A stretch of DNA of 64,000 nt from Desulfovibrionales bacterium (GTDB taxonomy: Bacteria; Desulfobacterota; QYQD01), in contig JAQURM010000005.1 in the NCBI GenBank assembly GCA_028715605.1, positions 62,001 through 126,000 of the forward strand. Direction: 5' to 3'. The translations under genes and the position numbers were made by a program. The notes under the pieces were generated by a model that saw only the letters and a list, made by a program, of their open reading frames with translations, was not told the DNA's origin and searched no databases. Positions 7,703 through 35,530 of this stretch are shown here, one piece after another. Each line of letters starts with the position of its first letter. The first letter of the stretch is position 1.

Positions 7703-7730
7703 GCTTGACTCATGTAAAAAGGTGATGATA
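7703..7730 (+). promoter_or_regulatory. Probable sigma-70 promoter of the pyr operon
   Basis: TTGACT (7703-7708) and GATAAA (7725-7730) are 16 bases apart. Transcription would start near 7738, which puts the leader ORF and terminator in the first 100 bases of transcript. Seen by eye only. Confidence 0.55.
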
Positions 7731-7760
7731 AATTACCGAACAGGTCTAACAGGGAAAGTA

Positions 7761-7820
7761 ATGAAGATACCACCAAGAGGTCTATTTAACTATGGGGCGC
7801 CCGGCCTCCTTACTCTCTGA
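7761..7820 (+). CDS. Candidate pyr leader peptide
   Basis: An ATG at 7761, after AGGGAAAGTA, opens a 19-codon frame, MKIPPRGLFNYGAPGLLTL, that stops at TGA 7818-7820. The stop lies in the loop of the downstream terminator, so a ribosome reaching it would cover the left arm of the hairpin. This is the geometry of the E. coli pyrBI leader, where UTP level sets how closely ribosomes follow polymerase. The peptide itself is not similar to known leaders. A PyrR protein is also encoded in this window, so control by RNA binding is an alternative. Confidence 0.5.
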   Translation: MKIPPRGLFNYGAPGLLTL

Positions 7821-7838
7821 GGAAGGAGGCTTTTTTTT
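7804..7838 (+). terminator. Intrinsic terminator/attenuator before pyrB
   Basis: GCCTCCTT (7804-7811) pairs with AAGGAGGC (7823-7830), followed by eight T (7831-7838). It lies only 12 bases before the pyrB ATG and downstream of the promoter, so it can only serve to regulate entry into pyrBC. Confidence 0.85.
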
Positions 7839-7850
7839 GAATACGGACTG

Positions 7851-9005
7851 ATGAAAGAAAAACCATTTACGATAAAACATATCCTGGACATCGCCGGCTT
7901 AAGCCCGGACCAGATCACCTATATTCTGGACACCGCAGAATCTTTTAAGGAAATCTCTACTCGCTCTATCAAAAAGGTGCCCACCTTACGCGGCAAGACA
8001 GTAATTAACCTCTTCTTTGAACCCAGTACCCGCACCCGGGCCTCTTTTGAAATAGCTGCAAAAAGACTAAGCGCCGATACCCTGAGCATTTCCGCCTCAA
8101 CCAGCAGCGTGGTAAAGGGGGAGACCTTAATCGACACTGCCCGGAACTTAGAGGCTATGCAACCCGATGTAATCGTCTTGCGCCACTCATTATCAGGCGC
8201 TCCCCACCTTCTAAGCAGACATGTTCGGGCCTCGGTCATCAACGCCGGCGATGGCGCGCATGAGCACCCCACTCAGGCCCTTCTGGATTTACTCACGGTA
8301 CGCGAAAAAAAGGGGGGAATTAACGGCCTTAAACTGGCCATAATCGGGGACATTGCACACAGCCGGGTAGCGCATTCCAATATCCTCGGCTTTACAAAAA
8401 TGGGAGCAAATGTTGTAGTGAGCGGCCCGGCAACTATGATACCGCCTTATATAGAAAAACTGGGAGCCAAAGTTACTCTGAGTATAAAAAAAGCCTTGCA
8501 GGGTGCGGACGTGATCATGGTCTTACGCATTCAACTGGAACGGCAGAACAAGCTCAACTTCCCTTCCATCCGTGAATATGCCACCTATTTCGGGCTTAAT
8601 ACGAAACATCTGGCCTCAGCCGCACCGGATGTTATAGTTATGCATCCCGGCCCCATTAATCGCGGTGTAGAAATAAGCCCAGAACTAGCTGACGGCCCTT
8701 ATTCTGTAATTCTTGATCAGGTGACAAATGGTGTAGCCGTACGCATGGCCCTCCTTTATCTTCTCCTGGGGAGCGAAACACGCATGTCGCATGGCGACAC
8801 AAAGAAAGATGAAAATAATCCCCCCTCACCCCCCTTTAGTAAAGGGGGGGATACGTTAAACCCCCCTTTTGGGAAAGACGGGGTCCCATCAATTCCCCCT
8901 TTTCCGCACTCAGGCGGATTCGCCGGGGCGAAGGAAAAGGGGATCCCCTACATTCCCCCTTTGGAAAAGGGGGATACAGGGGGATTTTCAGGTGAGAGTC
9001 AATGA
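7851..9005 (+). CDS. pyrB: Aspartate carbamoyltransferase with repeat-derived C-terminal tail
   Basis: Condenses carbamoyl phosphate with aspartate in pyrimidine synthesis. The N-terminal carbamoyl-phosphate domain has [19 protein letters not shown]. The HPTQALLDL motif and the later [13 protein letters not shown] are family-typical. A normal catalytic subunit ends near residue 310, just after [17 protein letters not shown]. Here about 70 more residues follow, encoded by the [11 protein letters not shown] repeat, read in frame to TGA. That tail is proline- and glycine-rich and has no counterpart in the family. The gene overlaps pyrC by four bases (ATGA). Regulation is probably by the attenuator at 7761-7838. 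No pyrI is seen. Confidence 0.95.
8784..8995. repeat. [11 protein letters not shown] repeat inside pyrB
   Basis: A composite of three G/C-tract palindromes (CCCCCCTTTAGTAAAGGGGG, then CCCCCTTTTGGGAAAGACGG, then CCCCCTTTGGAAAAGGGGGA) with a GGCGGATTCGCCGGGGCGAA insert. It shares its left flank (CATGTCGCATGGCGACACAA) with the copy at 24205, where CATGCCGCATAGCGACACAA is read. It is translated in pyrB. Confidence 0.85.
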
Positions 9006-10345
9006 ATCTATATCTGAAAGGTGCAAGGATAGTCGATCCCTCTGATCTGACAGGTCGTGCCATAGGCAGATTCACCGGGGCGAACGAGACGCCTGTCTTA
9101 ATTAAAACGAAAGTACTCTATGATATATACATCCGTAACGGCAAAATAGCTTTCATAACACCACAGGGCAAAGAACCCATACCGGCTGCCGCCAGGGTAA
9201 TCGACCTTGCCGGGAAAATCGTCACCCCCGGCCTCATAGATATGCACACCCACCTGCGCGAACCGGGTGAGGAATATAAAGAAACCATAGCCACGGGATG
9301 TCTGGCCGCGGTCTCCGGCGGGTTCACGGCCATAGCCTGTATGCCCAATACCAAACCGGTCAATGACAATAAATCCGTAACCGAATATATCCTGCAAAAG
9401 GCGCAGGAGGCCGGGCTGGCCACCGTCTATCCCATCGGGGCTATCAGCAAAGGGCTTCAGGGAGAAACCCTGGCCGAATTCGGTGATATGAAAACCGCCG
9501 GGATAACGGCAGTTACAGATGATGGCCGGCCCGTCATGAATGGCGAACTCATGCGCCGGGCCCTGGAATATGCCCGAAACTTCGACTTACCGGTGATCTC
9601 ACACTGCGAAGACCTGACGCTTTGTTCAGGCGGGGTAATGAATGAGGGGGCTGTATCCACACAGCTTGGATTACCCGGCATCCCGGCCGTGGCTGAAGAA
9701 GTCATGATCTTCCGGGAAATCAGGTTGGCCGCTCTTACCGGTGGCTCAGTCCACATCGCCCATGTAAGCGCCAGGGGCTCGGTCGATTTGATAAGACAGG
9801 CCAAGGCCTCCGGGGTCAACGTCACCGCGGAAACCGCCCCGCATTATTTCTCTTTGACCGAGGAGGCCGTAGCAGGCTACGACACCAACGCCAAGATGAA
9901 CCCTCCCCTCAGAACGAAAGAGGACGCAGCCGCCGTTATCGAGGGTCTCAAAGATGGGACCATAGACGCCATTGCCTCTGACCACGCCCCGCACAGCACG
10001 CTGGAAAAAGATGTGGAATTTAATATGGCGGCCAACGGCATCGTAGGTCTAGAAACCATTCTCCCGTTGACCCTGAAACTCGTCCATGCCGGTCATCTTT
10101 CCCTTCCCGAGGCTGTCGCCAAGCTCTCCACCAATCCGGCCCGTATTCTGCGAATTGAGGTTCCTTCCATCAAGATCGGCCAAAGGGCCGACCTCACCGT
10201 CATTGATCCTGACCGCAAATTTATCGTCGATGTCCAAAAATTCCAGTCCATCAGCAAAAACTCACCCTTCCATGGCTGGGAATTAAAGGGCACGGCCGTA
10301 ATGACGATAATAAATGGTAGGATCGTCTTTGATGATCTCGATTAA
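9002..10345 (+). CDS. pyrC: Dihydroorotase with N-terminal repeat insertion
   Basis: Closes carbamoyl aspartate to dihydroorotate. The 447-residue type I enzyme has the metal motif [18 protein letters not shown], a later ISHCEDL histidine, VHIAHVS and the catalytic ASDHAPHS. Compared with typical PyrC, an extra stretch of about 20 residues (about 17-37, [20 protein letters not shown]) lies between the IVDPSDL strand and the IRNGKI strand. Its DNA shares CGTGCCATAGGCAGATTC and CCGGGGCGAAC with an insertion in hypF. The ATG overlaps the pyrB stop, so the two genes are probably translationally coupled. Confidence 0.95.
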
Positions 10346-10649: not shown

Positions 10650-12188
10650 ATGAGACCCTGCGCCCGGATATTGGTAGTCGATGATGAACTGAGCATGCGT
10701 GAGTTCTTCAAGCTCATGCTGGATAGCGAAGGCTATCAGGCCGAGTGTGTCCCAAATGGCCGGGAGGCCGTCTCTCTCGCCCAGAAAAGCTTTTACGATC
10801 TGGTTATCACCGACATCCGCATGCCGGGCATGGATGGGATTGAGGTCCTGAAAAGGGTCAAAGAAATAAGCCCGGAGACGATAGTGATTATGATCTCCGC
10901 TTATGCCACCACGGAAACAGCCGTTACGGCTATGAAGCAGGGGGCTTATGACTACATCCCCAAGCCGTTTAACGTTGAGGAAATAAAGTTAATCATCCAA
11001 AAGGCCCTGGAAAAAAGGCAGCTTCGACAAGAAAATGACCGCCTCAAGGAGGAATTAAGAAAACATCACCGCTACGAGAAGCTGGTAGGCAGCTCTCCGG
11101 CCATGCTGAAGGTATATGAGATGATCAGAAAGGTCGCCCGGACCCGGAGTAATGTCCTGATTTATGGAGAGAGTGGAACCGGCAAGGAGTTAGTAGCCCG
11201 GGCTATTCACGCTGAAAGCCCGCGTAATAAAGAGAATTTTGTGGCCATTAATTGCGGCGGCATACCGGAGACTCTCATCGAAAGCGAGCTTTTTGGGCAT
11301 AAAAAAGGGGCCTTTACCGGGGCTATAAGCGATCAAAAAGGGCTTTTTGCCGAAGCCGACGGCGGGACGATATTCTTGGACGAGATAGCCGAACTCTCTC
11401 CGGCCCTCCAGGTAAAACTCCTTCGCGTACTCCAGGAAAGGGTATTCAGGCCGGTGGGAGGGACGGAAGATATTGCGGTCGATATCCGCATAATATCGGC
11501 CACGAACAAGGACCTGGAACAGGAAGTTGCGGCGGGAAATTTCCGCGAAGACCTCTTTTACCGGCTTAATGTCATCCAGATAAGGGTCCCGCCCCTCCGG
11601 GAAAGGAAAGAAGATATACCACTTTTGCTTCAGCACTTCCTCAAAAAATATGCAAATGAAACACTCATATCTCAAAGAGACACGAAGAATAATGAACAAA
11701 ATCCCCCCTCACCCCCCTTTACTAAAGGGGGGGATCTGTTAAGTTCCCCTTTGGGGAAAAACGGGGTCCCATCAATTCCCCCTTTGGAAAAGGGGGATAC
11801 AGGGGGATTTTCAGATAAGACGCGGAAGCAGGTGGATAAAATATCGCCCGCAGCCTTAAAAATACTGATGCAATATGACTTTCCGGGAAATGTACGTGAA
11901 CTCGAAAACATTATCGAAAGAAGCGTGGCTCTCGCCTCCTCCAGCGCTATTCAGGCGGAAGACCTATCGTTTATAAATATAAACAACGGCAAAGGAGCGA
12001 AGATCGGCACACCGCCTGTGACCATCCCGTCAGATGGCTTCGACCTCGAGAAATACATAGCCAGGACAGAAAGAGATATCCTCCTTAAGGCCCTTGAGAT
12101 CAGCCGGGGCGCCAAGCAGAAGGCCGCCGGCCTCCTGGGCATCAGCTTCCGCTCCTTCCGGCATCGCCTGAGCAAATACGGCCTGTGA
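10650..12188 (+). CDS. Sigma-54 dependent response regulator (NtrC family) with in-frame insertion
   Basis: A cytoplasmic transcription activator. The receiver domain (about 5-120) has DDE near the start, the phosphorylatable aspartate in VITDIRMPGMDG, and KPF. The AAA+ domain has Walker A GESGTGKE, the sigma-54 contact loop GAFTGA and Walker B GGTIFLDEIAEL. A Fis-type helix-turn-helix (ILLKALEISRGAKQKAAGLL) ends it. Residues about 338-392 are an NPPSPPFTKGG insertion between LLLQHFLKKYANE and ISPAALKILMQYDFPGNVREL, where relatives continue directly. It lies just upstream of pilA with its sigma-54 promoter, so it is a good candidate activator of pilA (PilR-like). The start has no strong ribosome site. 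Confidence 0.9.
   Translation: MRPCARILVVDDELSMREFFKLMLDSEGYQAECVPNGREAVSLAQKSFYDLVITDIRMPGMDGIEVLKRVKEISPETIVIMISAYATTETAVTAMKQGAYDYIPKPFNVEEIKLIIQKALEKRQLRQENDRLKEELRKHHRYEKLVGSSPAMLKVYEMIRKVARTRSNVLIYGESGTGKELVARAIHAESPRNKENFVAINCGGIPETLIESELFGHKKGAFTGAISDQKGLFAEADGGTIFLDEIAELSPALQVKLLRVLQERVFRPVGGTEDIAVDIRIISATNKDLEQEVAAGNFREDLFYRLNVIQIRVPPLRERKEDIPLLLQHFLKKYANETLISQRDTKNNEQNPPSPPFTKGGDLLSSPLGKNGVPSIPPLEKGDTGGFSDKTRKQVDKISPAALKILMQYDFPGNVRELENIIERSVALASSSAIQAEDLSFININNGKGAKIGTPPVTIPSDGFDLEKYIARTERDILLKALEISRGAKQKAAGLLGISFRSFRHRLSKYGL
11690..11815. repeat. [11 protein letters not shown] repeat inside the response regulator gene
   Basis: The units CCCCCCTTTACTAAAGGGGG and CCCCTTTGGAAAAGGGGGAT recur here in the same order, orientation and reading frame as in pyrB. 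The insert lies in the AAA+ domain's C-terminal helical part and keeps the frame. Confidence 0.85.
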
Positions 12189-15213: not shown

Positions 15214-16803
15214 ATGAAAAAATACGGCCTAAGTATCCGCACCAAAATCGCCCTTACCTTTGTGTTTCTCTTGCTGACCGGGATGTTCCTGGTGGCCGTT
15301 GTTTCCGTAAAGATGGCCGAACGGAGCATCGCCCGGCAAAAGATAGACAGCGCAGCCATTCTGGTCCAGAACCTTGCCAACGTAATCAACCAGCTATCGA
15401 GAGATTCAGACATAAGGGAAAACGGACCGGGTGATGTTCAATCCCTGCTCAGTTCTTATCTCAGCCCGTCCAGTTTTGACTACATAGCCCTGGTAAGAAG
15501 CGACGGGGTAATCGTCGCAGAAGCGGCATTTGAAGCCATAAAATTGGCCCCTCTATCCGCCGAGGCAAGACTTCAGGCCCCGGCTGAGAGGCCGGTTTGT
15601 AACCTCACAGGGGCAGACAATTTCTCCTTTTTCAGGAGAGACCTGCGCCTGGCTGCCGTGTTCCCCATCTTCAAAGACGGCCGCCGTTGGGGTATTATAT
15701 ATGCCAAAAGTCTACTCGGTGACCTGCGTCAGGAGATGGCGCAGCTCTACAAGTTGACCTTCTTTTACATTGTTCTTGATGCTGTGCTTATTTTCCTTTT
15801 CGGCTATCTTCTTATCTCCAGAGATGTCGTCCGGCCTATTAGACGCCTAACCTCACTTGTGGATACCATAGGCAGTGGAGACCCCGGCCCCTTTATACAT
15901 TCTGAACAACAAAATGAGATCGGAAAACTTTACCACGCCTTTGCCCGTATGGATAAACGTCTAGGTGAACAAAAAAAAGAGATAAAGGAATACATTGCCT
16001 CCCTGGAAAATGCCAATCGTGAGCTTAATAAGGTACAGGAAGAGGTAATCCGTTCTGAAAAACTGGCCTCGGTAGGCCGGTTAGCCGCCGGAGTGGCCCA
16101 TGAAATCGGTAATCCATTGGCCGCCATCATAGGTTACGTCGAACTTCTGTTACAACGTGCAGTCAGCGAGGAAGAAGAACGGGATTTTCTAGGTCGTATC
16201 GCCTCGGAATTGCAGCGCATAAATGGTATCATACGCGACCTGCTCGATTTCTCCCGTCCCTCCCCCCAAAAGATCGAAAGGGTGTCTATTAACGAAGTTA
16301 TCGAAGGCAGTCTTTCCCTCCTTTCACATCAGAAAACCATGCGTTATATCGGTATCCAGGCTGACCTACAGCCAGACCTGCCGTTCGCCCGGGCTAACGC
16401 CCAGCAGTTAAAACAGGTCGTTATCAATATCCTGGCCAACGCCGCCGCCGCCATGCCTATCGGTGGAGACCTGCGCATCAAATCAGGGCTAAAGGAAATA
16501 CTTAAAAATGACGAAAAGAAAAATAATCCCCCCACACCCCCCTTTAGTAAAGGGGGGCAGGGGGGATTATTAGATGAATATATAGTTATCGATGTGGAAG
16601 ACAGCGGGACCGGGATTAAACCGGAAGACCTCCCAAGGGTCTTTGATCCCTTCTTCACCACAAAACCACAGGGAGAAGGCACGGGTCTGGGTCTGGCGAT
16701 CTCTTTGCGTATCATGGAATCGTTTGGCGGGAAGATAACCGTAGAAAGCGCCATAGGCAAGGGCACGAAATTCAGCCTTATTTTAAAAGTATGGAATGGA
16801 TAA
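15214..16803 (+). CDS. Membrane sensor histidine kinase with in-frame repeat insertion
   Basis: 529 residues. Two membrane helices (about 13-33 and 183-205) enclose a periplasmic sensor domain. A HAMP segment follows (VVRPIRRLTSLVD). The H-box VAHEIGNPLAAIIGY carries the phosphorylated histidine, with N-box NAAAAMP, G1 DSGTGI, F-box FDPFFTT and G2 GTGLGLAI. About residues 431-453 are an NNPPTPPFSKGG insertion placed between two strands of the ATPase domain, after LRIKSGLKE and before YIVIDVEDSG. It is followed by its likely partner regulator at 16935 and flanked by pilus genes, so a PilS-like role is plausible. Confidence 0.9.
   Translation: MKKYGLSIRTKIALTFVFLLLTGMFLVAVVSVKMAERSIARQKIDSAAILVQNLANVINQLSRDSDIRENGPGDVQSLLSSYLSPSSFDYIALVRSDGVIVAEAAFEAIKLAPLSAEARLQAPAERPVCNLTGADNFSFFRRDLRLAAVFPIFKDGRRWGIIYAKSLLGDLRQEMAQLYKLTFFYIVLDAVLIFLFGYLLISRDVVRPIRRLTSLVDTIGSGDPGPFIHSEQQNEIGKLYHAFARMDKRLGEQKKEIKEYIASLENANRELNKVQEEVIRSEKLASVGRLAAGVAHEIGNPLAAIIGYVELLLQRAVSEEEERDFLGRIASELQRINGIIRDLLDFSRPSPQKIERVSINEVIEGSLSLLSHQKTMRYIGIQADLQPDLPFARANAQQLKQVVINILANAAAAMPIGGDLRIKSGLKEILKNDEKKNNPPTPPFSKGGQGGLLDEYIVIDVEDSGTGIKPEDLPRVFDPFFTTKPQGEGTGLGLAISLRIMESFGGKITVESAIGKGTKFSLILKVWNG
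16524..16573. repeat. Short NPP-type repeat inside the kinase gene
   Basis: AATCCCCCCACACCCCCCTT followed by TAGTAAAGGGGGGCAGGGGG forms one G/C-tract palindrome. It is the minimal form of the family and keeps the frame used in pyrB and the regulator. Confidence 0.8.
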
Positions 16804-24204: not shown

Positions 24205-24350
24205 ATGCCGCATAGCGACACAAAGGACAACGGGAATAATCCCCCCGTACCCCCCTTTATTAAAGGGGGGATATGTTAAGTTCCCCTTTGGAAAAAGATG
24301 GCGGCTTATCAATTCCCCCTTTGGAAAAGGGGGACACAGGGGGATTTTCA
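24205..24350. repeat. NPP-type repeat upstream of macA
   Basis: CATGCCGCATAGCGACACAA, then CCCCCTTTATTAAAGGGGGG and CCCCCTTTGGAAAAGGGGGA. It ends two bases before the macA ATG. Here it is intergenic, but an in-frame ATG at 24298 would add 18 repeat-derived residues to MacA. Confidence 0.8.
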
Positions 24351-28971: not shown

Positions 28972-29708
28972 CTGGCCTCCTCCCGATACCCATCGTAAAG
29001 CCTTATTTGCCCGAGTGCTTCACCGGCGGAGATGCCAAAACGCCCCAACAGCGCGCGGGCGGCATCCATATTCGGGTCATCTACCAGGCCGCGGCAACCC
29101 GAGCAATAGGCCCCCTCGGTAATACAACAGGCCCCGCAGCCGGCCCTGGTCACCGGCCCCATACAAAACTGGCCCTTGAGAAGCACACAGACATTTCCCG
29201 CCTTCTTACAATCCACACACATCGGATAATTGGGGATAAAAGGCTTCTTGCCCTGCAACAGGGCCTTGAGTACCTGGACAAACTCCTCACGGTTTATCGG
29301 GCAACCGTGGACATTGGCATCTACCGAAACTACTGCTGAAACCGGCCGGGCCGCATAAGTATTATACCAATGGGCCTTATCGCCATAGACATAGCGCCGC
29401 ACGAATTTTTCATCTTGAAAATTCTTCATGCAATTAATCCCGCCGATAGTAGCACAAGCCCCTATGGCCACCAGTATTCCGGCCTTTCCCCGGATGGCTT
29501 TTATCCGTTCTTCGTCACTCTTTCGGGTGATAGAACCTTCTACCAGGGCAATGTCATAATGGTCGCTCTGCTCCTTCATGGCCTCACGCCAGGTGACTAT
29601 CTCCACCTGTCCCAGGACATCCAGCACAGCCTCTTCCAGGTTGACGATCTGCAACTGATCGCCCTCGCAGCCGGCAAAATCAAAGATGGCCACCCTTGGC
29701 TTGCTCAT
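28968..29708 (-). CDS. hydD: [NiFe] hydrogenase small (delta) subunit, group 3b-like
   Basis: 246 residues. It should hold the iron-sulfur relay to the Ni-Fe site. Further cysteines for clusters lie in GACATIGG, VHGCPINREEF, CVDCKKAGNVC, FCMGPVTRAGCGACC and CSGCRG. The usual N-terminal C-x-x-C reads GCEGDQ, so the second proximal-cluster ligand is aspartate. No twin-arginine signal is present, which fits a cytoplasmic enzyme. It overlaps hydG and hydA by four bases each. Confidence 0.92.
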   Translation of the reverse strand: MSKPRVAIFDFAGCEGDQLQIVNLEEAVLDVLGQVEIVTWREAMKEQSDHYDIALVEGSITRKSDEERIKAIRGKAGILVAIGACATIGGINCMKNFQDEKFVRRYVYGDKAHWYNTYAARPVSAVVSVDANVHGCPINREEFVQVLKALLQGKKPFIPNYPMCVDCKKAGNVCVLLKGQFCMGPVTRAGCGACCITEGAYCSGCRGLVDDPNMDAARALLGRFGISAGEALGQIRLYDGYREEAR

Positions 29709-30532
29709 GACAAGGCCTCCTCCAGATTCTTTATCGCCGCAAAATTAAACACCGGCCCCTCCTGACAGACATAAACCGGACCCATCTGACAGTGGCCGCA
29801 CTTGCCTAACCCACATTTCATCTTCCTCTCAAGGGAAACGATGATATGATCATCGGCCAGGCCCTTGGCCCTGGCCGCGGCTATGGCAAAACGATACATC
29901 ACCGGCGGCCCGACCATAATGGCATACGTCTTTTTAGGATCAATGGTAAATTTCGGGAAAAGGGTGGTAATGACCCCCACATTGCCCTTCCAGGAGGCAT
30001 CGCCTACATCCACGGTCTCCAGGTATTCAAGGTCCGGACGCCTTGCCAGGGAAGCAATCTCTGCCTTGAAAAGACGGTCGGCCGGTGTTCGCGCCCCGAA
30101 GAGTATAATTATTCTGCCGTAATCCCTTCGCCTTTCCAGGGCATAGTTGATAAAAGACCGCAAAGGCACGATTCCCAGCCCCCCGGCCACAAACAGAAGG
30201 TCTTTACCTTTGAGATCCTCAAACGGGAAGTGCGTACCATAAGGGCCGCGTATGCCGATAACATCTCCCGCTTTCAGGTTATGCAAGGCGTTGGTAACAT
30301 TGCCGGCCCGGCGCACACATATCTCAAAATCTGTTTTTTTGTTGGGCGCCGAAGAGACCGAAATAGGACATTCACCCACACCAAATACAGAAACCTCGAC
30401 AAACTGTCCCGGCTTATGCCCCAGAGGCTTTCCATCATTAGGACGAACCATAAACAGCTTTTCCATAGCCGTCTGCTCTTCGATCTTCATAATAGTGGCG
30501 AGACCGGGCAGGTAGGGAGATGGTGAGCCCAT
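29705..30532 (-). CDS. hydG: Hydrogenase gamma subunit, FAD/NAD(P)-binding
   Basis: 275 residues. Ferredoxin-NADP reductase-like: an FAD-binding barrel ends in GIRGPYGTHFPFE, then the nucleotide-binding LLFVAGGLGIVPLRSFI. A C-terminal 2Fe-2S segment has CGLGKCGHCQMGPVYVC. This is the diaphorase part of the enzyme, exchanging electrons with NAD(P)H. It lies between hydB and hydD and overlaps the latter. The start is ATG 30532. Confidence 0.92.
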   Translation of the reverse strand: MGSPSPYLPGLATIMKIEEQTAMEKLFMVRPNDGKPLGHKPGQFVEVSVFGVGECPISVSSAPNKKTDFEICVRRAGNVTNALHNLKAGDVIGIRGPYGTHFPFEDLKGKDLLFVAGGLGIVPLRSFINYALERRRDYGRIIILFGARTPADRLFKAEIASLARRPDLEYLETVDVGDASWKGNVGVITTLFPKFTIDPKKTYAIMVGPPVMYRFAIAAARAKGLADDHIIVSLERKMKCGLGKCGHCQMGPVYVCQEGPVFNFAAIKNLEEALS

Positions 30533-30534
30533 GA

Positions 30535-31593
30535 TTAGATACCCTCCTTCAAACGATTAAAGACCGTTACGGGATCGGCTATATCAGACGGGCACTGTGC
30601 GGAACAACGTCCACACCCCACGCAGGCAATATCGCCAAAACGCCTGTATATGAACTGCCCCTTACGATAAAAACGGTGGCGGTAGCGGTCAGCCCGATGG
30701 CCGCGAAAATTACCGCCGCCCGCTACCCGGGCAAAGTCGCTCAAAAGACACCCATCCCAGGTACGATAGCGGCTGCCTTTTTTAAGGTCTATGGAGACAT
30801 CGTCCCGGACATCAAAACAGTAGCAGGTTGGACATACTAAGTTACAGGTCCCGCAACTAAAACAAAGATGGGACTTTTCCTCCCAGATAACGTGTTCCTC
30901 ATTGCCATCTAAAAGGGATGGGAGTTCAAGATAAGAAAAACTCAACCGGTTGGCATCACAGCGTTTTCTCGCCTCCGCCCGTACCTTGTCCCTTTCTTTC
31001 ACCTCAGCCGGCGCAGCTTCCCTGGTGCGGGGGGCCGTCTTGAGAAGCGAAGCCCCTTTCTTGCTGCCCACATCCACTACATAACACTGCCCGATATCCG
31101 TCAACATCAAATCGAAACCACCCGCCACAGTGTCAGCCCCCATGCTGCTCCAGAAGGCCCTGGGCGCTACCTTGACCGGATCGATGCCGATAATCGTAGT
31201 CCGCTTACGACGTTCAAGGTAGTGGTTATCCTGAGGAATAGCGGAAAACACCTTATCCATCTGGTTTATGGCTATAATGTCATACGGGTGTACGCCAAAA
31301 ATAATCAACTCTTCTTTCGGTGCATCCGCCTTGATTGATCCCGGCGACAGGTTAAAGGTCAAAAGCTGCTCATAGGCCGGTAAGAGGTATTTCTTGGGAG
31401 GGATAAGCGTAACATCAAAAGAAAGGGTCATCTCCCCCGGTGAATTAATCGGAGCATAAGTGTAAAAGCCGCTATCCCCGGGTATGGAAGAAACTGCCGA
31501 CTGGTCCTTTACGCCGACCACGGTATTCTTCTGGCGCAAAAGCTCCGCCACAAACAAATGCAGTCCTTCTTTCTCAATAATTGCCAGGCTCAT
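30535..31593 (-). CDS. hydB: Hydrogenase beta subunit, 4Fe-4S protein
   Basis: 352 residues. Two 4Fe-4S motifs: CFSCGTCNLVCPTCYC and CVGCGRCSAQCPSD. The rest is the HydB/sulfhydrogenase beta domain seen next to ferredoxin motifs (for example FGVHPYDIIAINQMD). It should pass electrons between the flavin subunit and the delta subunit. It is the first gene of the operon and lies behind the promoter at 31659-31687. Confidence 0.92.
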   Translation of the reverse strand: MSLAIIEKEGLHLFVAELLRQKNTVVGVKDQSAVSSIPGDSGFYTYAPINSPGEMTLSFDVTLIPPKKYLLPAYEQLLTFNLSPGSIKADAPKEELIIFGVHPYDIIAINQMDKVFSAIPQDNHYLERRKRTTIIGIDPVKVAPRAFWSSMGADTVAGGFDLMLTDIGQCYVVDVGSKKGASLLKTAPRTREAAPAEVKERDKVRAEARKRCDANRLSFSYLELPSLLDGNEEHVIWEEKSHLCFSCGTCNLVCPTCYCFDVRDDVSIDLKKGSRYRTWDGCLLSDFARVAGGGNFRGHRADRYRHRFYRKGQFIYRRFGDIACVGCGRCSAQCPSDIADPVTVFNRLKEGI

Positions 31594-31658
31594 ATCGCCA
31601 CCTATTAGACCTTTCCCCTGCTATAAGATCCTGAACTCTAATATGGAAACACTGCTCT

Positions 31659-31687
31659 TATATATGCAACCAGCTTGTCTGTGTCAA
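31659..31687 (-). promoter_or_regulatory. Promoter of the hydrogenase operon with overlapping palindrome
   Basis: On the minus strand TTGACA (31687-31682) and TATATA (31664-31659) are 17 bases apart, close to the sigma-70 consensus. A perfect 14-bp palindrome TCAAGAATTCTTGA (31684-31697) overlaps the -35 box, a position suited to a repressor. The leader is about 55-60 bases. Confidence 0.7.
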
Positions 31688-31715
31688 GAATTCTTGAATT
31701 AATTCCAGATGTTGT

Positions 31716-32279
31716 TCACCTTTTCTCAAACCCTGTCCCTGTCTCCAGGATAACCTTATCTTCCCCGCCCGACTCTTTTAAAAAGACGTTTACCCGCTCG
31801 GAACAGGCGGTATTGATTTTTTTGCCCACATATTGAGGCTCGATGGGTAACTCCCGATGGCCGCGATCCACAAGTACCGCCAATTCCACTCCCTTGGGAC
31901 GCCCAAAATCCATAAGGGCATCCAGCGCCGCCCTAACCGTGCGCCCGGTAAAAAGAACATCATCCACTAAGATAATCTTCTGATCCTCGACAGGGAAACC
32001 TATCTCTGTTTTATGAACTAATGGCTGGCGACCAATCATGCTCCAGTCATCACGATAAAGGGTTATGTCCAGTATGCCCATAGGCACATCCGCCTGTTCC
32101 GTATGCATAATTTTTCCCTTCAGACGCTGGGCCAGAAAAACACCACCGGTTCGAATGCCTACGAGGGCCAGCCCCTCTACCCCCTTGTTCCTCTCCAGGA
32201 TCTGGTGAGCCATTCTGGCCAAAACACGGTTAATCTCTTCCTCATCCATCAATGTTATTTCTTTGGACATTATCCACAT
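31716..32279 (-). CDS. pyrR: PyrR: pyrimidine regulator / uracil phosphoribosyltransferase
   Basis: 187 residues. The PRPP-binding motif IILVDDVLFTGRTVRAALDAL is clear. GVEGLALVGIRTGGVFLAQRLK and VDRGHRELPIEPQYVGKKI are standard PyrR features. In Gram-positive bacteria PyrR binds pyr mRNA and causes termination in the presence of UMP. Here it is 24 kb from pyrB, whose leader has a terminator, so RNA-based control is possible but no canonical PyrR-binding loop was recognised. Two start codons (32279 and 32270) are equally likely. Confidence 0.93.
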   Translation of the reverse strand: MWIMSKEITLMDEEEINRVLARMAHQILERNKGVEGLALVGIRTGGVFLAQRLKGKIMHTEQADVPMGILDITLYRDDWSMIGRQPLVHKTEIGFPVEDQKIILVDDVLFTGRTVRAALDALMDFGRPKGVELAVLVDRGHRELPIEPQYVGKKINTACSERVNVFLKESGGEDKVILETGTGFEKR

Positions 32280-32296
32280 AACCTCGTTTATTTATA

Positions 32297-32355
32297 AGCA
32301 TTCAGCTATCAGCACTCAGCTTTCAGCTAATTACTGATGGCTGATAGCTGAATGC
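32297..32355. repeat. Hairpin repeat, GCATTCAGCTATCAGC arms
   Basis: GCATTCAGCTATCAGC (32298-32313) faces GCTGATAGCTGAATGC (32340-32355), with a partial third unit between. The hairpin lies between the BioD-like gene and pyrR. Confidence 0.75.
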
Positions 32356-32360
32356 TTAGT

Positions 32361-33431
32361 TTATTTTTTCTTTAGACCAAGTTTGGCATACAGGCGGTCA
32401 AAATCGACATATTCCTTAATAAGATGGACGCCTCTTTCCACCTTTTCCGTCTCACGCAGCCTTATACGAAAAGAGAGCTTCTCCATACTCTTGGCAATAG
32501 TATAGGTGTCGCCGGACAGGACAACGATGGGAATTCCCTTTTCCTCAGCCCGCCCGATAATTATGTCATTAGGATATAAGTTGCCGGTCAACAAAATACA
32601 TCTGGCCCCGCCTTCTATGGAAGCCAGTTGAATATCCGACCGATCCCCTCCCACAATGACCCCCACATTCTTAGACTTTCTGAAATATTCCAAAAACATG
32701 TTAACCTGCATGCCTCCGATCAGAAACTGTTCTACCAGATTATCCAGGCGATGATGACAGCAGATGACTTTCCCGCCAAGCTGCTCCGCTATATATTCCA
32801 CCTTGACCGAGGCCATCAGAGGATCATAAGGCACTACCCCCAGGACACTTATCCCTTTTTTCTCCAGATAAGGTACTATTAATTCCTGTACATCGCTCAT
32901 ATATTCAGACGTTATATTATTCAAAATGACACCGGCGAGGTGTTCCTTGAAATTATCCTGGGCATCCAGTATGCTGTCGACATAGAAATCCCCCCGATAC
33001 CGGTCGATGAGGACAATTTTCGCCTCAAGCCTCCTTACTAATTTAGTTGCCGGTATGCCCATGTAACTACCGGTATGAAAGCTGCCCGAGCCGCCCACTA
33101 TCATAACCTCCTTGTTTATGGCCAGGGACTTAAAGGCCTTGACGATCTTGCGATCCAGGCCTTTCATATCCTCACGCAGGGCGTCTATCAAGACATCCTG
33201 AGTGATGACCACCGGACAGACGAGCTCCAGGGGATCGGAAAGTTTTAAAAAACGATATATAAACCACGCATCTTTGTCCGTGAGGATGTTTTCAACCTCT
33301 GCCGGCAGTATCCCCACAGGCTTCTGGTAGCCGACACTAAAACCGTCCTTCTGCAATTGGGCGCCAATACCCATGGTAACCATACTCTTGCCGGAATAAC
33401 CGGCCGTAGAACTTACATATAATGTAACCAT
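32361..33431 (-). CDS. BioD-like P-loop plus DRTGG domain protein
   Basis: 356 residues. The N-terminal half is a BioD/CobQ-like P-loop domain (YVSSTAGYSGKSMVTMGIGAQL; the loop reads AGYSGKS) and the C-terminal half is a DRTGG domain (about 215-320, with NVGVIVGGDRSDIQLASIEGG). The same pair of domains forms the N-terminal part of the long bacterial phosphotransacetylases, but the catalytic PTA domain is absent. It follows the acetate-CoA ligase by two bases, so it may regulate or assist acetate metabolism. No direct function can be assigned. Confidence 0.8.
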   Translation of the reverse strand: MVTLYVSSTAGYSGKSMVTMGIGAQLQKDGFSVGYQKPVGILPAEVENILTDKDAWFIYRFLKLSDPLELVCPVVITQDVLIDALREDMKGLDRKIVKAFKSLAINKEVMIVGGSGSFHTGSYMGIPATKLVRRLEAKIVLIDRYRGDFYVDSILDAQDNFKEHLAGVILNNITSEYMSDVQELIVPYLEKKGISVLGVVPYDPLMASVKVEYIAEQLGGKVICCHHRLDNLVEQFLIGGMQVNMFLEYFRKSKNVGVIVGGDRSDIQLASIEGGARCILLTGNLYPNDIIIGRAEEKGIPIVVLSGDTYTIAKSMEKLSFRIRLRETEKVERGVHLIKEYVDFDRLYAKLGLKKK

Positions 33432-33433
33432 AC

Positions 33434-35530
33434 TTAGGCCCCCCTTATGGTAAACCTGGCATCAACCGCTATAACCCCTTCGCCCCTGGATTTGGCCAGC
33501 AGGGGATTTACGTCGGCTTCCACAATTTCCGGAAAATCCTGGGCCAGTTGAGACATTATAAGCAGGGCTTCCTCAACGGCCTCAATATCTGCAGATTGTT
33601 CTCCCCGCACCCCGCGTAAAAGGGGAAAAGACCTTATCTCCCTCACCATCTCATGGGCATCTTCCCTGGCTAAAGGCGCCACACGGAAAGACACATCCTT
33701 AAGTACTTCTACATAAACACCACCTAAGCCGAACATAATCAACGTCCCGAACTGCGGATCCTTACTCAGACCCAGGATGACCTCTCTACCCCCTATAATC
33801 ATCTCCTGTACCATCACCCCGAGGATAGGGGCCTGAGGAGCCCTGGCCCGTGCCCGTGAGGTAATCTCAAAAAACGCCCTCTCTACCTCTTTTGCCGTAT
33901 TAATGCCAAGAATAACGCCGCCTATGTCACTCTTGTGAATAATCTGGTGTGCGGCAATCTTCATAACTACGGGATACCCGATACTATCGGCAGCAGCCAC
34001 CGCCTCCCTTGAGGTACGGGCCAGGATATTGGCCGGAACCTTAAAACCATAGGCCTGAAGAACTTCCCGCGCCTCAGCTTCTATAAGTTGATTACGGTTT
34101 TCATCGCGCACCCGGTCAAATATCTGCCATACCTTGTCCCGATCCGCCCGGTAACAAAGATGCGTGCGTGGGGGCTCATCCACCCATAAACGCTGGCGGT
34201 ACATACTATCCATAGCGGCTATGGCATCTTCAGGATAATTATAATGCGGGATGCCCTCCCGTAATAATATTTTTATCCCTTCTTCTACACGTTTCTTCCC
34301 CAGAAAGGAAGCAAAGACCGGTTTCGGCGATTGTTTCGCAAGTCCGGCAACAGCCTTGGCCGTCTCAGCCACATCAACCATAGCCGTGGGTGTCAGCAAG
34401 ATCAGGATGGCGTGCACCTGATCGTCTGCCTGTATGATGGCCAGGGTATCACGGTAACGCTCCGCTCCCGCATCGCCGATAATATCCACCGGGTTATAAA
34501 AGGAGGCGATAGGCGGCAGTATTTTTCGGAGCTTATCTATGGTCTCCTTGTTTAAGGAGGCCAGTATGAGATTGGAACGGTCACAGGCATCCGCGGCTAT
34601 TATACCCGGCCCGCCGGAGTTGGTGATAATGGCTATATTGGGGCCTTTAGGCAAAGGCTGGTAGGCAAAGGCCATGGCATAATTGAAAAGATCGTTGATG
34701 GAATGGGCGCGAATGACGCCGCTCTGGCGAAAGGCGGCCTGAAACGCCGCATCCGAGCCGGCCAGCGCGCCGGTATGCGAGGACGCTGCCTTGGCGCCGG
34801 AGGCCGTGGTGCCTGATTTGATGAGAATAACCGGCTTCCTTTTGGAGATCGCCCTGGCCACGTCCATAAAGGCCAGGCCGTCAGTTATGCCCTCCAGATA
34901 CCCCAGGACAACCTTGGTCTCCGGGTCTTCCGACAGGGCCATCAGCATCTCGATCTCGGAGATATCCGTCTTATTTCCCAGGCTGACGAACTTGGAAAAG
35001 CCGATGTCTTCGGCCAGAGACCAGTCCAGGATAGCCACACACAAGGCCCCGGATTGGGAAAAAAAGCCGATGTTGCCTTTAAGCGGCATGCCTGCCGCAA
35101 AAGAGGCGTTAACCCCGGAGGCTGTATCGATCAGGCCGACACAATTGGGGCCGACCATACGTATGCCGTATCTATTGATGGCATCCTTTAATTCGCGCTC
35201 CAGCCGGGCCCCTTCCGGCCCGACCTCCTTGAATCCCGCCGTTATAACCACTATCGAGTCGATTTTTTGGGCCGCGCATTCCTCGACTATCTGAATTACA
35301 TGCGGCGCAGGCACGCAAATTACGGCCAGGTCAACCGGGCCGGGTACGGAGGCCAAGTTCGGGTAGGCTTTAGTGCCCAGTATCTCCGTGGCAGCGGGAT
35401 TAACGGGATAAATCTGCCCCTGATACCCATAGCTCATCATGTTTTTTAAGACGTCATACCCGACCTTGCCCGGCTGACGTGAAGCGCCGACTACAGCTAC
35501 GGAACGGGGGCTGAAAAAGTGTTCTAACAT
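33434..35530 (-). CDS. Acetate-CoA ligase (ADP-forming), fused alpha-beta
   Basis: 698 residues. Converts acyl-CoA, ADP and phosphate to the acid, CoA and ATP, reversibly. The N-terminal CoA-binding domain has VAVVGASRQPGKVGYDVLKN. The ligase part follows, with the phosphohistidine candidate SSHTGALAGSDAAFQAAFRQ. The C-terminal ATP-grasp domain starts near residue 470 (EAREVLQAYGFKVPA, GYPVVMKIAAHQIIHKSDIGGV). The Pyrococcus enzyme has these as two proteins; here they are one. It would give substrate-level ATP from acetyl-CoA or other acyl-CoA. The BioD-like gene is in the same operon. Confidence 0.9.
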   Translation of the reverse strand: MLEHFFSPRSVAVVGASRQPGKVGYDVLKNMMSYGYQGQIYPVNPAATEILGTKAYPNLASVPGPVDLAVICVPAPHVIQIVEECAAQKIDSIVVITAGFKEVGPEGARLERELKDAINRYGIRMVGPNCVGLIDTASGVNASFAAGMPLKGNIGFFSQSGALCVAILDWSLAEDIGFSKFVSLGNKTDISEIEMLMALSEDPETKVVLGYLEGITDGLAFMDVARAISKRKPVILIKSGTTASGAKAASSHTGALAGSDAAFQAAFRQSGVIRAHSINDLFNYAMAFAYQPLPKGPNIAIITNSGGPGIIAADACDRSNLILASLNKETIDKLRKILPPIASFYNPVDIIGDAGAERYRDTLAIIQADDQVHAILILLTPTAMVDVAETAKAVAGLAKQSPKPVFASFLGKKRVEEGIKILLREGIPHYNYPEDAIAAMDSMYRQRLWVDEPPRTHLCYRADRDKVWQIFDRVRDENRNQLIEAEAREVLQAYGFKVPANILARTSREAVAAADSIGYPVVMKIAAHQIIHKSDIGGVILGINTAKEVERAFFEITSRARARAPQAPILGVMVQEMIIGGREVILGLSKDPQFGTLIMFGLGGVYVEVLKDVSFRVAPLAREDAHEMVREIRSFPLLRGVRGEQSADIEAVEEALLIMSQLAQDFPEIVEADVNPLLAKSRGEGVIAVDARFTIRGA

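Follow-up and report, generated by a model that had tools for sequence, protein, structure and literature searches.

The question raised by this locus was whether pyrBC is controlled by a ribosome that translates a short leader ORF, similar to pyrBI of E. coli, or by the protein PyrR. The first-pass annotation of the window (the whole 64-kb stretch of DNA that was analysed) had described a promoter, a 19-codon ORF and a terminator in front of pyrB, and it treated the two modes of control as competing models. In E. coli pyrBI, coupling of translation across the pyrL leader prevents the terminator (Roland, Liu and Turnbough 1988, as cited in PMC5021804). Among the papers searched, none joined PyrR, a leader peptide and pyrB in Desulfobacterota. 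From the comparison with related genomes, we consider it fairly probable that the leader at 7705-7850 attenuates transcription of pyrBC in a way that depends on the ribosome and not on PyrR.

Organization and conservation of the pyrB leader

The pyrB gene (7851-9005, + strand) encoded aspartate carbamoyltransferase (NCBIfam NF002032, 411.5 bits), and its end was overlapped by pyrC (9002-10345, + strand), the gene for dihydroorotase (TIGR00857, 450.6 bits). In front of pyrB, a sigma-70-like promoter (7705-7734), a leader ORF designated ORF1 (7761-7820) and an intrinsic terminator (7803-7838) were arranged in this order on the same strand. The promoter comprised a -35 box TTGACT (7705-7710), an 18-nt spacer and an extended -10 box TGA-TAAATT (7729-7734), with the transcription start predicted at ~7741. 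It matched the consensus at 9 of 12 positions and TG preceded the -10 box. Since the region contained 3 promoter-grade sites versus 2.1 expected, such a match was weak alone. The promoter was kept in all four leaders of the genus (3 of 34 columns variable), and this conservation together with the 9/12 match bore out the earlier placement of a promoter upstream of the ORF.

The terminator, the putative attenuator, consisted of a stem (7803-7831) and a run of eight U (7831-7838). With an energy of -17.7 kcal/mol, it ranked in the top three of all T-tailed hairpins that the 64-kb window had on its + strand. We compared it with four other genomes of the genus, three of which had pyrB (L007, L008 and L009), giving an alignment of four leaders. 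The hairpin with its U-run was variable at one column out of 37, so the claim of a strong terminator before pyrB stood on both its energy and its conservation. The corresponding values were 6/42 columns for the part of ORF1 ahead of the hairpin, 10/24 (42%) for the 5' UTR, 36% for the 100 nt further upstream and 6% for the start of pyrB. Thus, the most conserved non-coding stretches were the terminator and the promoter, and an RNA element bound by a protein would be expected in the variable 5' UTR. The fold of the whole leader was no stronger than that of shuffled sequences (z = -0.34), so the case rested on the local hairpin. A scan of the 64-kb window with Rfam at the gathering thresholds found RNase P and one tRNA only, and the leader contained no riboswitch.

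Copies of a palindromic repeat (CCCCCCTTTAGTAAAGGGGGG and CCCCCTTTGGAAAAGGGGG) were dispersed over the window, at 8829-8973, 11712-11796, 16537-16557 and 24250-24333. It was inserted in frame in the C-terminal tail of pyrB, in a sigma-54-type regulator and in a histidine kinase-like gene. The pyrB open frames were shorter in two sister genomes.

Two overlapping leader ORFs

ORF1 (MKIPPRGLFNYGAPGLLTL, 19 codons, + strand) started with ATG at 7761 and was open, without indels, in all four genus genomes, as expected from the earlier description of a 19-codon ORF before pyrB. Its TGA stop (7818-7820) was indeed located within the terminator loop, but 30 nt before pyrB rather than the 12 bases originally given; that distance applies to the last U of the terminator (7838). 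The ribosome site attributed to this ORF was borne out only in part, by a purine-rich Shine-Dalgarno-like (SD) sequence (AGGGAAAG, 7751-7758, + strand) that was weak: the anti-SD duplex had -4.9 kcal/mol here and -5.9, -2.9 and -5.9 kcal/mol in L007, L008 and L009, respectively.

Beyond the earlier account, there was a second overlapping ORF that reached the start of pyrB. ORF2 (7792-7851, + strand, 19 codons) crossed the terminator, its TGA stop overlapped the ATG of pyrB (TGATG), and it was open in all four genus genomes. Its SD had -7.0 kcal/mol in the window versus -1.1 in L008, where it was lost. The two substitutions responsible in L008 broke the strand AAGAGG (7775-7780), while ORF1 stayed open. 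The same strand was the only candidate that we found for an RNA antiterminator in the leader; it was broken in L008 without compensation and the candidate was rejected.

A third of the shuffled leaders (probability ~0.33) had an ORF of 15 codons or more that began with ATG and entered the hairpin, so the leader claim could not rest on this window alone. A codon-position test on the ORF1 and ORF2 peptides gave no signal of purifying selection, which would be expected where only the act of translation matters and equally expected for a non-coding stretch.

The SD of pyrB itself was very weak (-2.7 kcal/mol in the window and -1.2 to -2.7 in the genus versus -5 to -12 in relatives). Such a start could agree with control through ORF2 and translational coupling, where the terminator arm AAGGAGG (7823-7829) would act as an SD late in the ORF2 frame (for example, for TTG at 7837) and the hairpin would both terminate transcription and hide the pyrB ribosome site. 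The stretch GGAGGCTTTTTTTTGAATAC.GACTGATG was kept in all four genus leaders, as this reading would have it. Moreover, in L152, L185, L199 and L204 the 3' arm of the terminator (AAGGAGG or similar) was at SD distance from the start of pyrB itself, and there one hairpin could end transcription and hide the ribosome site. However, ORF2 of L008 had no SD at its ATG, TTG starts are weak and an extra reinitiation step would be required, which made control of this kind unlikely in the window.

Leaders of other pyrB genes

The attenuator reading, in which a ribosome on the leader ORF governs the terminator, was next set against 193 pyrB loci, mostly from Desulfobacterota with some from other phyla. 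The pyrR gene was located directly upstream of pyrB in 117 of them, often with a terminator upstream of pyrR, and was not found there in 76, although a few of these loci ended close to pyrB. Among the loci without adjacent pyrR, 33 had a strong terminator just before pyrB, nearly all of them from Desulfobacterota. An SD-led ORF entered the hairpin in 17 of these 33 leaders versus 6.7 expected from shuffles that kept the hairpin, and in 15 of the 33 (2.6 expected) the leader ORF ended within -15 to +12 of pyrB. Its stop was exactly on the pyrB start in 12/33 versus 1.15 expected, a count inflated by relatedness since the 33 leaders included close relatives (three from the genus, five from family f10 and three from f16). 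The counts are therefore best taken to show that the layout recurs in a number of families (f1, f10, f16, f7 and others), and less as a tally of independent origins. In family f10, the five leaders had ATGs at -86, -89 or -92 in one frame and every stop at +4. Comparison of orthologous pyrB leaders had been suggested as a check, and its outcome supported the proposal: the ORF and hairpin were kept in 4/4 genus leaders and the layout recurred in other Desulfobacterota.

These data also bear on the possibility that the terminator is an unregulated promoter-proximal element with fortuitous ORFs, setting only a constant read-through. The chance frequency of such ORFs, the lack of a coding signal and the lack of a visible sensor would be consistent with it. 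Nevertheless, the combination of a terminator and an ORF recurred at pyrB in several families without the PyrR site, and many pyr operons of the phylum had a terminator either before pyrB or just upstream of pyrR. We regard an unregulated terminator as improbable on these grounds.

At some other desulfobacterial loci (L037, L046 and L053, also L022, L034 and L038), the gene ending just before pyrB resembled signal peptidase I, with the motif GDNRDNS..D.RFWG, and no terminator leader was seen.

The PyrR-binding hairpin

By pattern, the PyrR hairpin (CCUUUUAA..UCCNGNGAG..AAGG) was found at 50 loci, all with adjacent pyrR. A covariance model built from 45 of them, in which 6 of 10 pairs showed compensatory changes, added 14 more. 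In total, 64 of the 117 pyrR-adjacent loci had the hairpin, compared with none of 67 loci without adjacent pyrR (Fisher p = 3e-17, uncorrected for relatedness). Whole-genome searches with the model gave 35-48 bits in four positive genomes, whereas in the 14 genomes whose pyrB had no adjacent pyrR nothing exceeded ~22 bits. In the leader and the genome studied here, the model had no match at E values up to 1. The best Rfam match of the leader in a lax scan was RF00515 at 18.3 bits versus a gathering threshold of 54 (E = 2.9), and we judged it a chance match carried by the terminator. Additionally, the predicted 5' UTR before ORF1 was ~20 nt, too short for the hairpin of 33 nt.

The loci with the PyrR hairpin entered the SD-ORF test as presumed negative controls. 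They scored 35/51 versus 8.6 expected, and thus these leaders also carried leader ORFs, many of which crossed the terminator. A start codon was located 2-13 nt after the AAGG of the hairpin in 35 of 44 hairpin-linked leaders, versus 9-11 of 44 in later intervals of equal size. It was probable, from this arrangement, that PyrR gates leader translation at hairpin-linked loci across several phyla. At L027, L036, L041, L042, L143, L176, L205, L206 and others, the SD position was taken by the hairpin's own 3' strand, AAGG(G).

An orphan PyrR protein

The window did contain a pyrR gene, as the first-pass annotation had stated. It was located at 31716-32279 (- strand), ~21 kb from the end of pyrC, scored 238.8 bits in NCBIfam (cut-off 138) and was present in 5/5 genus genomes. 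It was part of a gene run (29705-35530, - strand) with an ADP-forming acyl-CoA synthetase-like gene (acs), a DRTGG/AAA gene, pyrR and hydrogenase-like subunits. The trio of acs-like, DRTGG and pyrR genes was kept in other families (L216 and L217), and hydrogenase-like subunits followed it in this genus.

The hairpin-linked PyrRs had D149, N154 and a basic residue (R, K or H) at position 147 in 57/57 cases and P156 in 55/57. In the genus, E147, Q149, K154 and N156 were found in all five PyrRs. Neither N154 nor R/K147 occurred in any of 12 orphan PyrRs, and PyrRs adjoining pyrB without a detected hairpin were intermediate (N154 in 9/47). Residue 147 of the window PyrR is what we take to be the equivalent of R146 in B. 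subtilis, a position that mutagenesis is reported to implicate in RNA binding. In related bacteria PyrR is the usual regulator of these genes, but in this organism the leader site to which it would dock and the residues that mark RNA recognition both seem to be gone. Since no upp gene scored over the cut-off in the genus genomes, PyrR may have been kept as a uracil phosphoribosyltransferase.

PyrR as the alternative control route was thus not sustained, since neither the leader nor the genome yielded a PyrR hairpin and the genus PyrR lacked the residues invariant in hairpin-linked PyrRs. Attenuation by a PyrR that, together with UMP, would bind the leader RNA and promote termination (Bacillus-like or as proposed for Thermus) is very unlikely: a genuine pyrR gene in the window, the sub-threshold RF00515 match and the PyrR sites of relatives with adjacent pyrR speak for it, but the split of 64/117 versus 0/67 loci, the short 5' UTR and the changes R147E, D149Q, N154K and P156N stand against it.

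Proposed mechanism and its relation to known systems

Under ribosome-dependent attenuation, transcription would start near 7741 and a ribosome would load on a leader ORF, most likely ORF1. A ribosome close behind RNA polymerase would occupy the terminator from its 5' arm into the loop, where ORF1 stops (7818-7820), the hairpin would be blocked and pyrBC would be transcribed. If the ribosome lagged, the hairpin (7803-7838) would form and transcription would end before pyrB. ORF2, with its stop overlapping the pyrB start, would probably feed ribosomes onto pyrB, itself almost without an SD. That translation prevents termination is suggested by the layout, and the pyrimidine level might set the coupling via UTP pausing by analogy with E. 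coli. A ribosome that terminates on ORF1 would rest on this part of the hairpin, with the same effect as pyrL coupling.

Similar to E. coli pyrBI, the leader ORF overlapped an intrinsic terminator directly before pyrB and no RNA-binding regulator would be needed (PMC5021804). The differences were pyrC in place of pyrI as the second gene, a short ORF1 that stopped in the loop with a second ORF covering the rest, a weak SD and the lack of a marked U-rich pause tract. The T content in the 30 nt before the hairpin was an ordinary 23-30% in the genus leaders, with UCUAUUUAACUAU only, and a very low 3-13% in the f16 leaders, which had the same ORF layout. The proposed likeness to pyrBI is partly supported: the layout fits ribosome-dependent attenuation and recurred in relatives without adjacent pyrR, and UTP-sensitive pausing at a U-rich tract, the part specific to E. 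coli, would be conjectural in this leader.

In comparison to the Bacillus PyrR attenuators (RF00515), the window had a terminator before the pyr gene and a PyrR gene in the genome but neither a PyrR hairpin nor a conserved antiterminator. For the pyr operon of Thermus ZO5, Van de Casteele et al. in 1997 reportedly proposed a PyrR site combined with a translating ribosome that replaces the antiterminator: PyrR is said to block leader translation, and otherwise the ribosome blocks the terminator. The window shared the leader ORF and terminator with this system, whose architecture was also that of the PyrR-hairpin loci found in this comparison. However, its pyrR was outside the pyr operon, and no PyrR hairpin immediately preceded the start of its leader ORF, unlike in those relatives where pyrR lies ahead of pyrB.

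Evolutionary implications

The window leader looks like the hairpin-linked layout with the PyrR half removed, although the removal step itself is inferred, and it was probably derived from an ancestor with both PyrR and a leader ORF. It is conceivable, if rather doubtful, that pyr control lost PyrR more than once, independently in several lineages of Desulfobacterota, while the leader ORF and terminator were kept and came to work as an attenuator by themselves; its sensor would then be something other than PyrR or a U-tract of the E. coli kind. Our data suggest how one textbook mode of pyr control could turn into another, from the PyrR-gated leader ORF proposed for Thermus to an E. coli-like PyrR-free attenuator, with PyrR left behind as a salvage enzyme. 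Since the RNA site and the protein residues both showed the loss, R/K147, D149, N154 and P156 provide a sequence signature by which RNA-binding and purely enzymatic PyrRs can be told apart.
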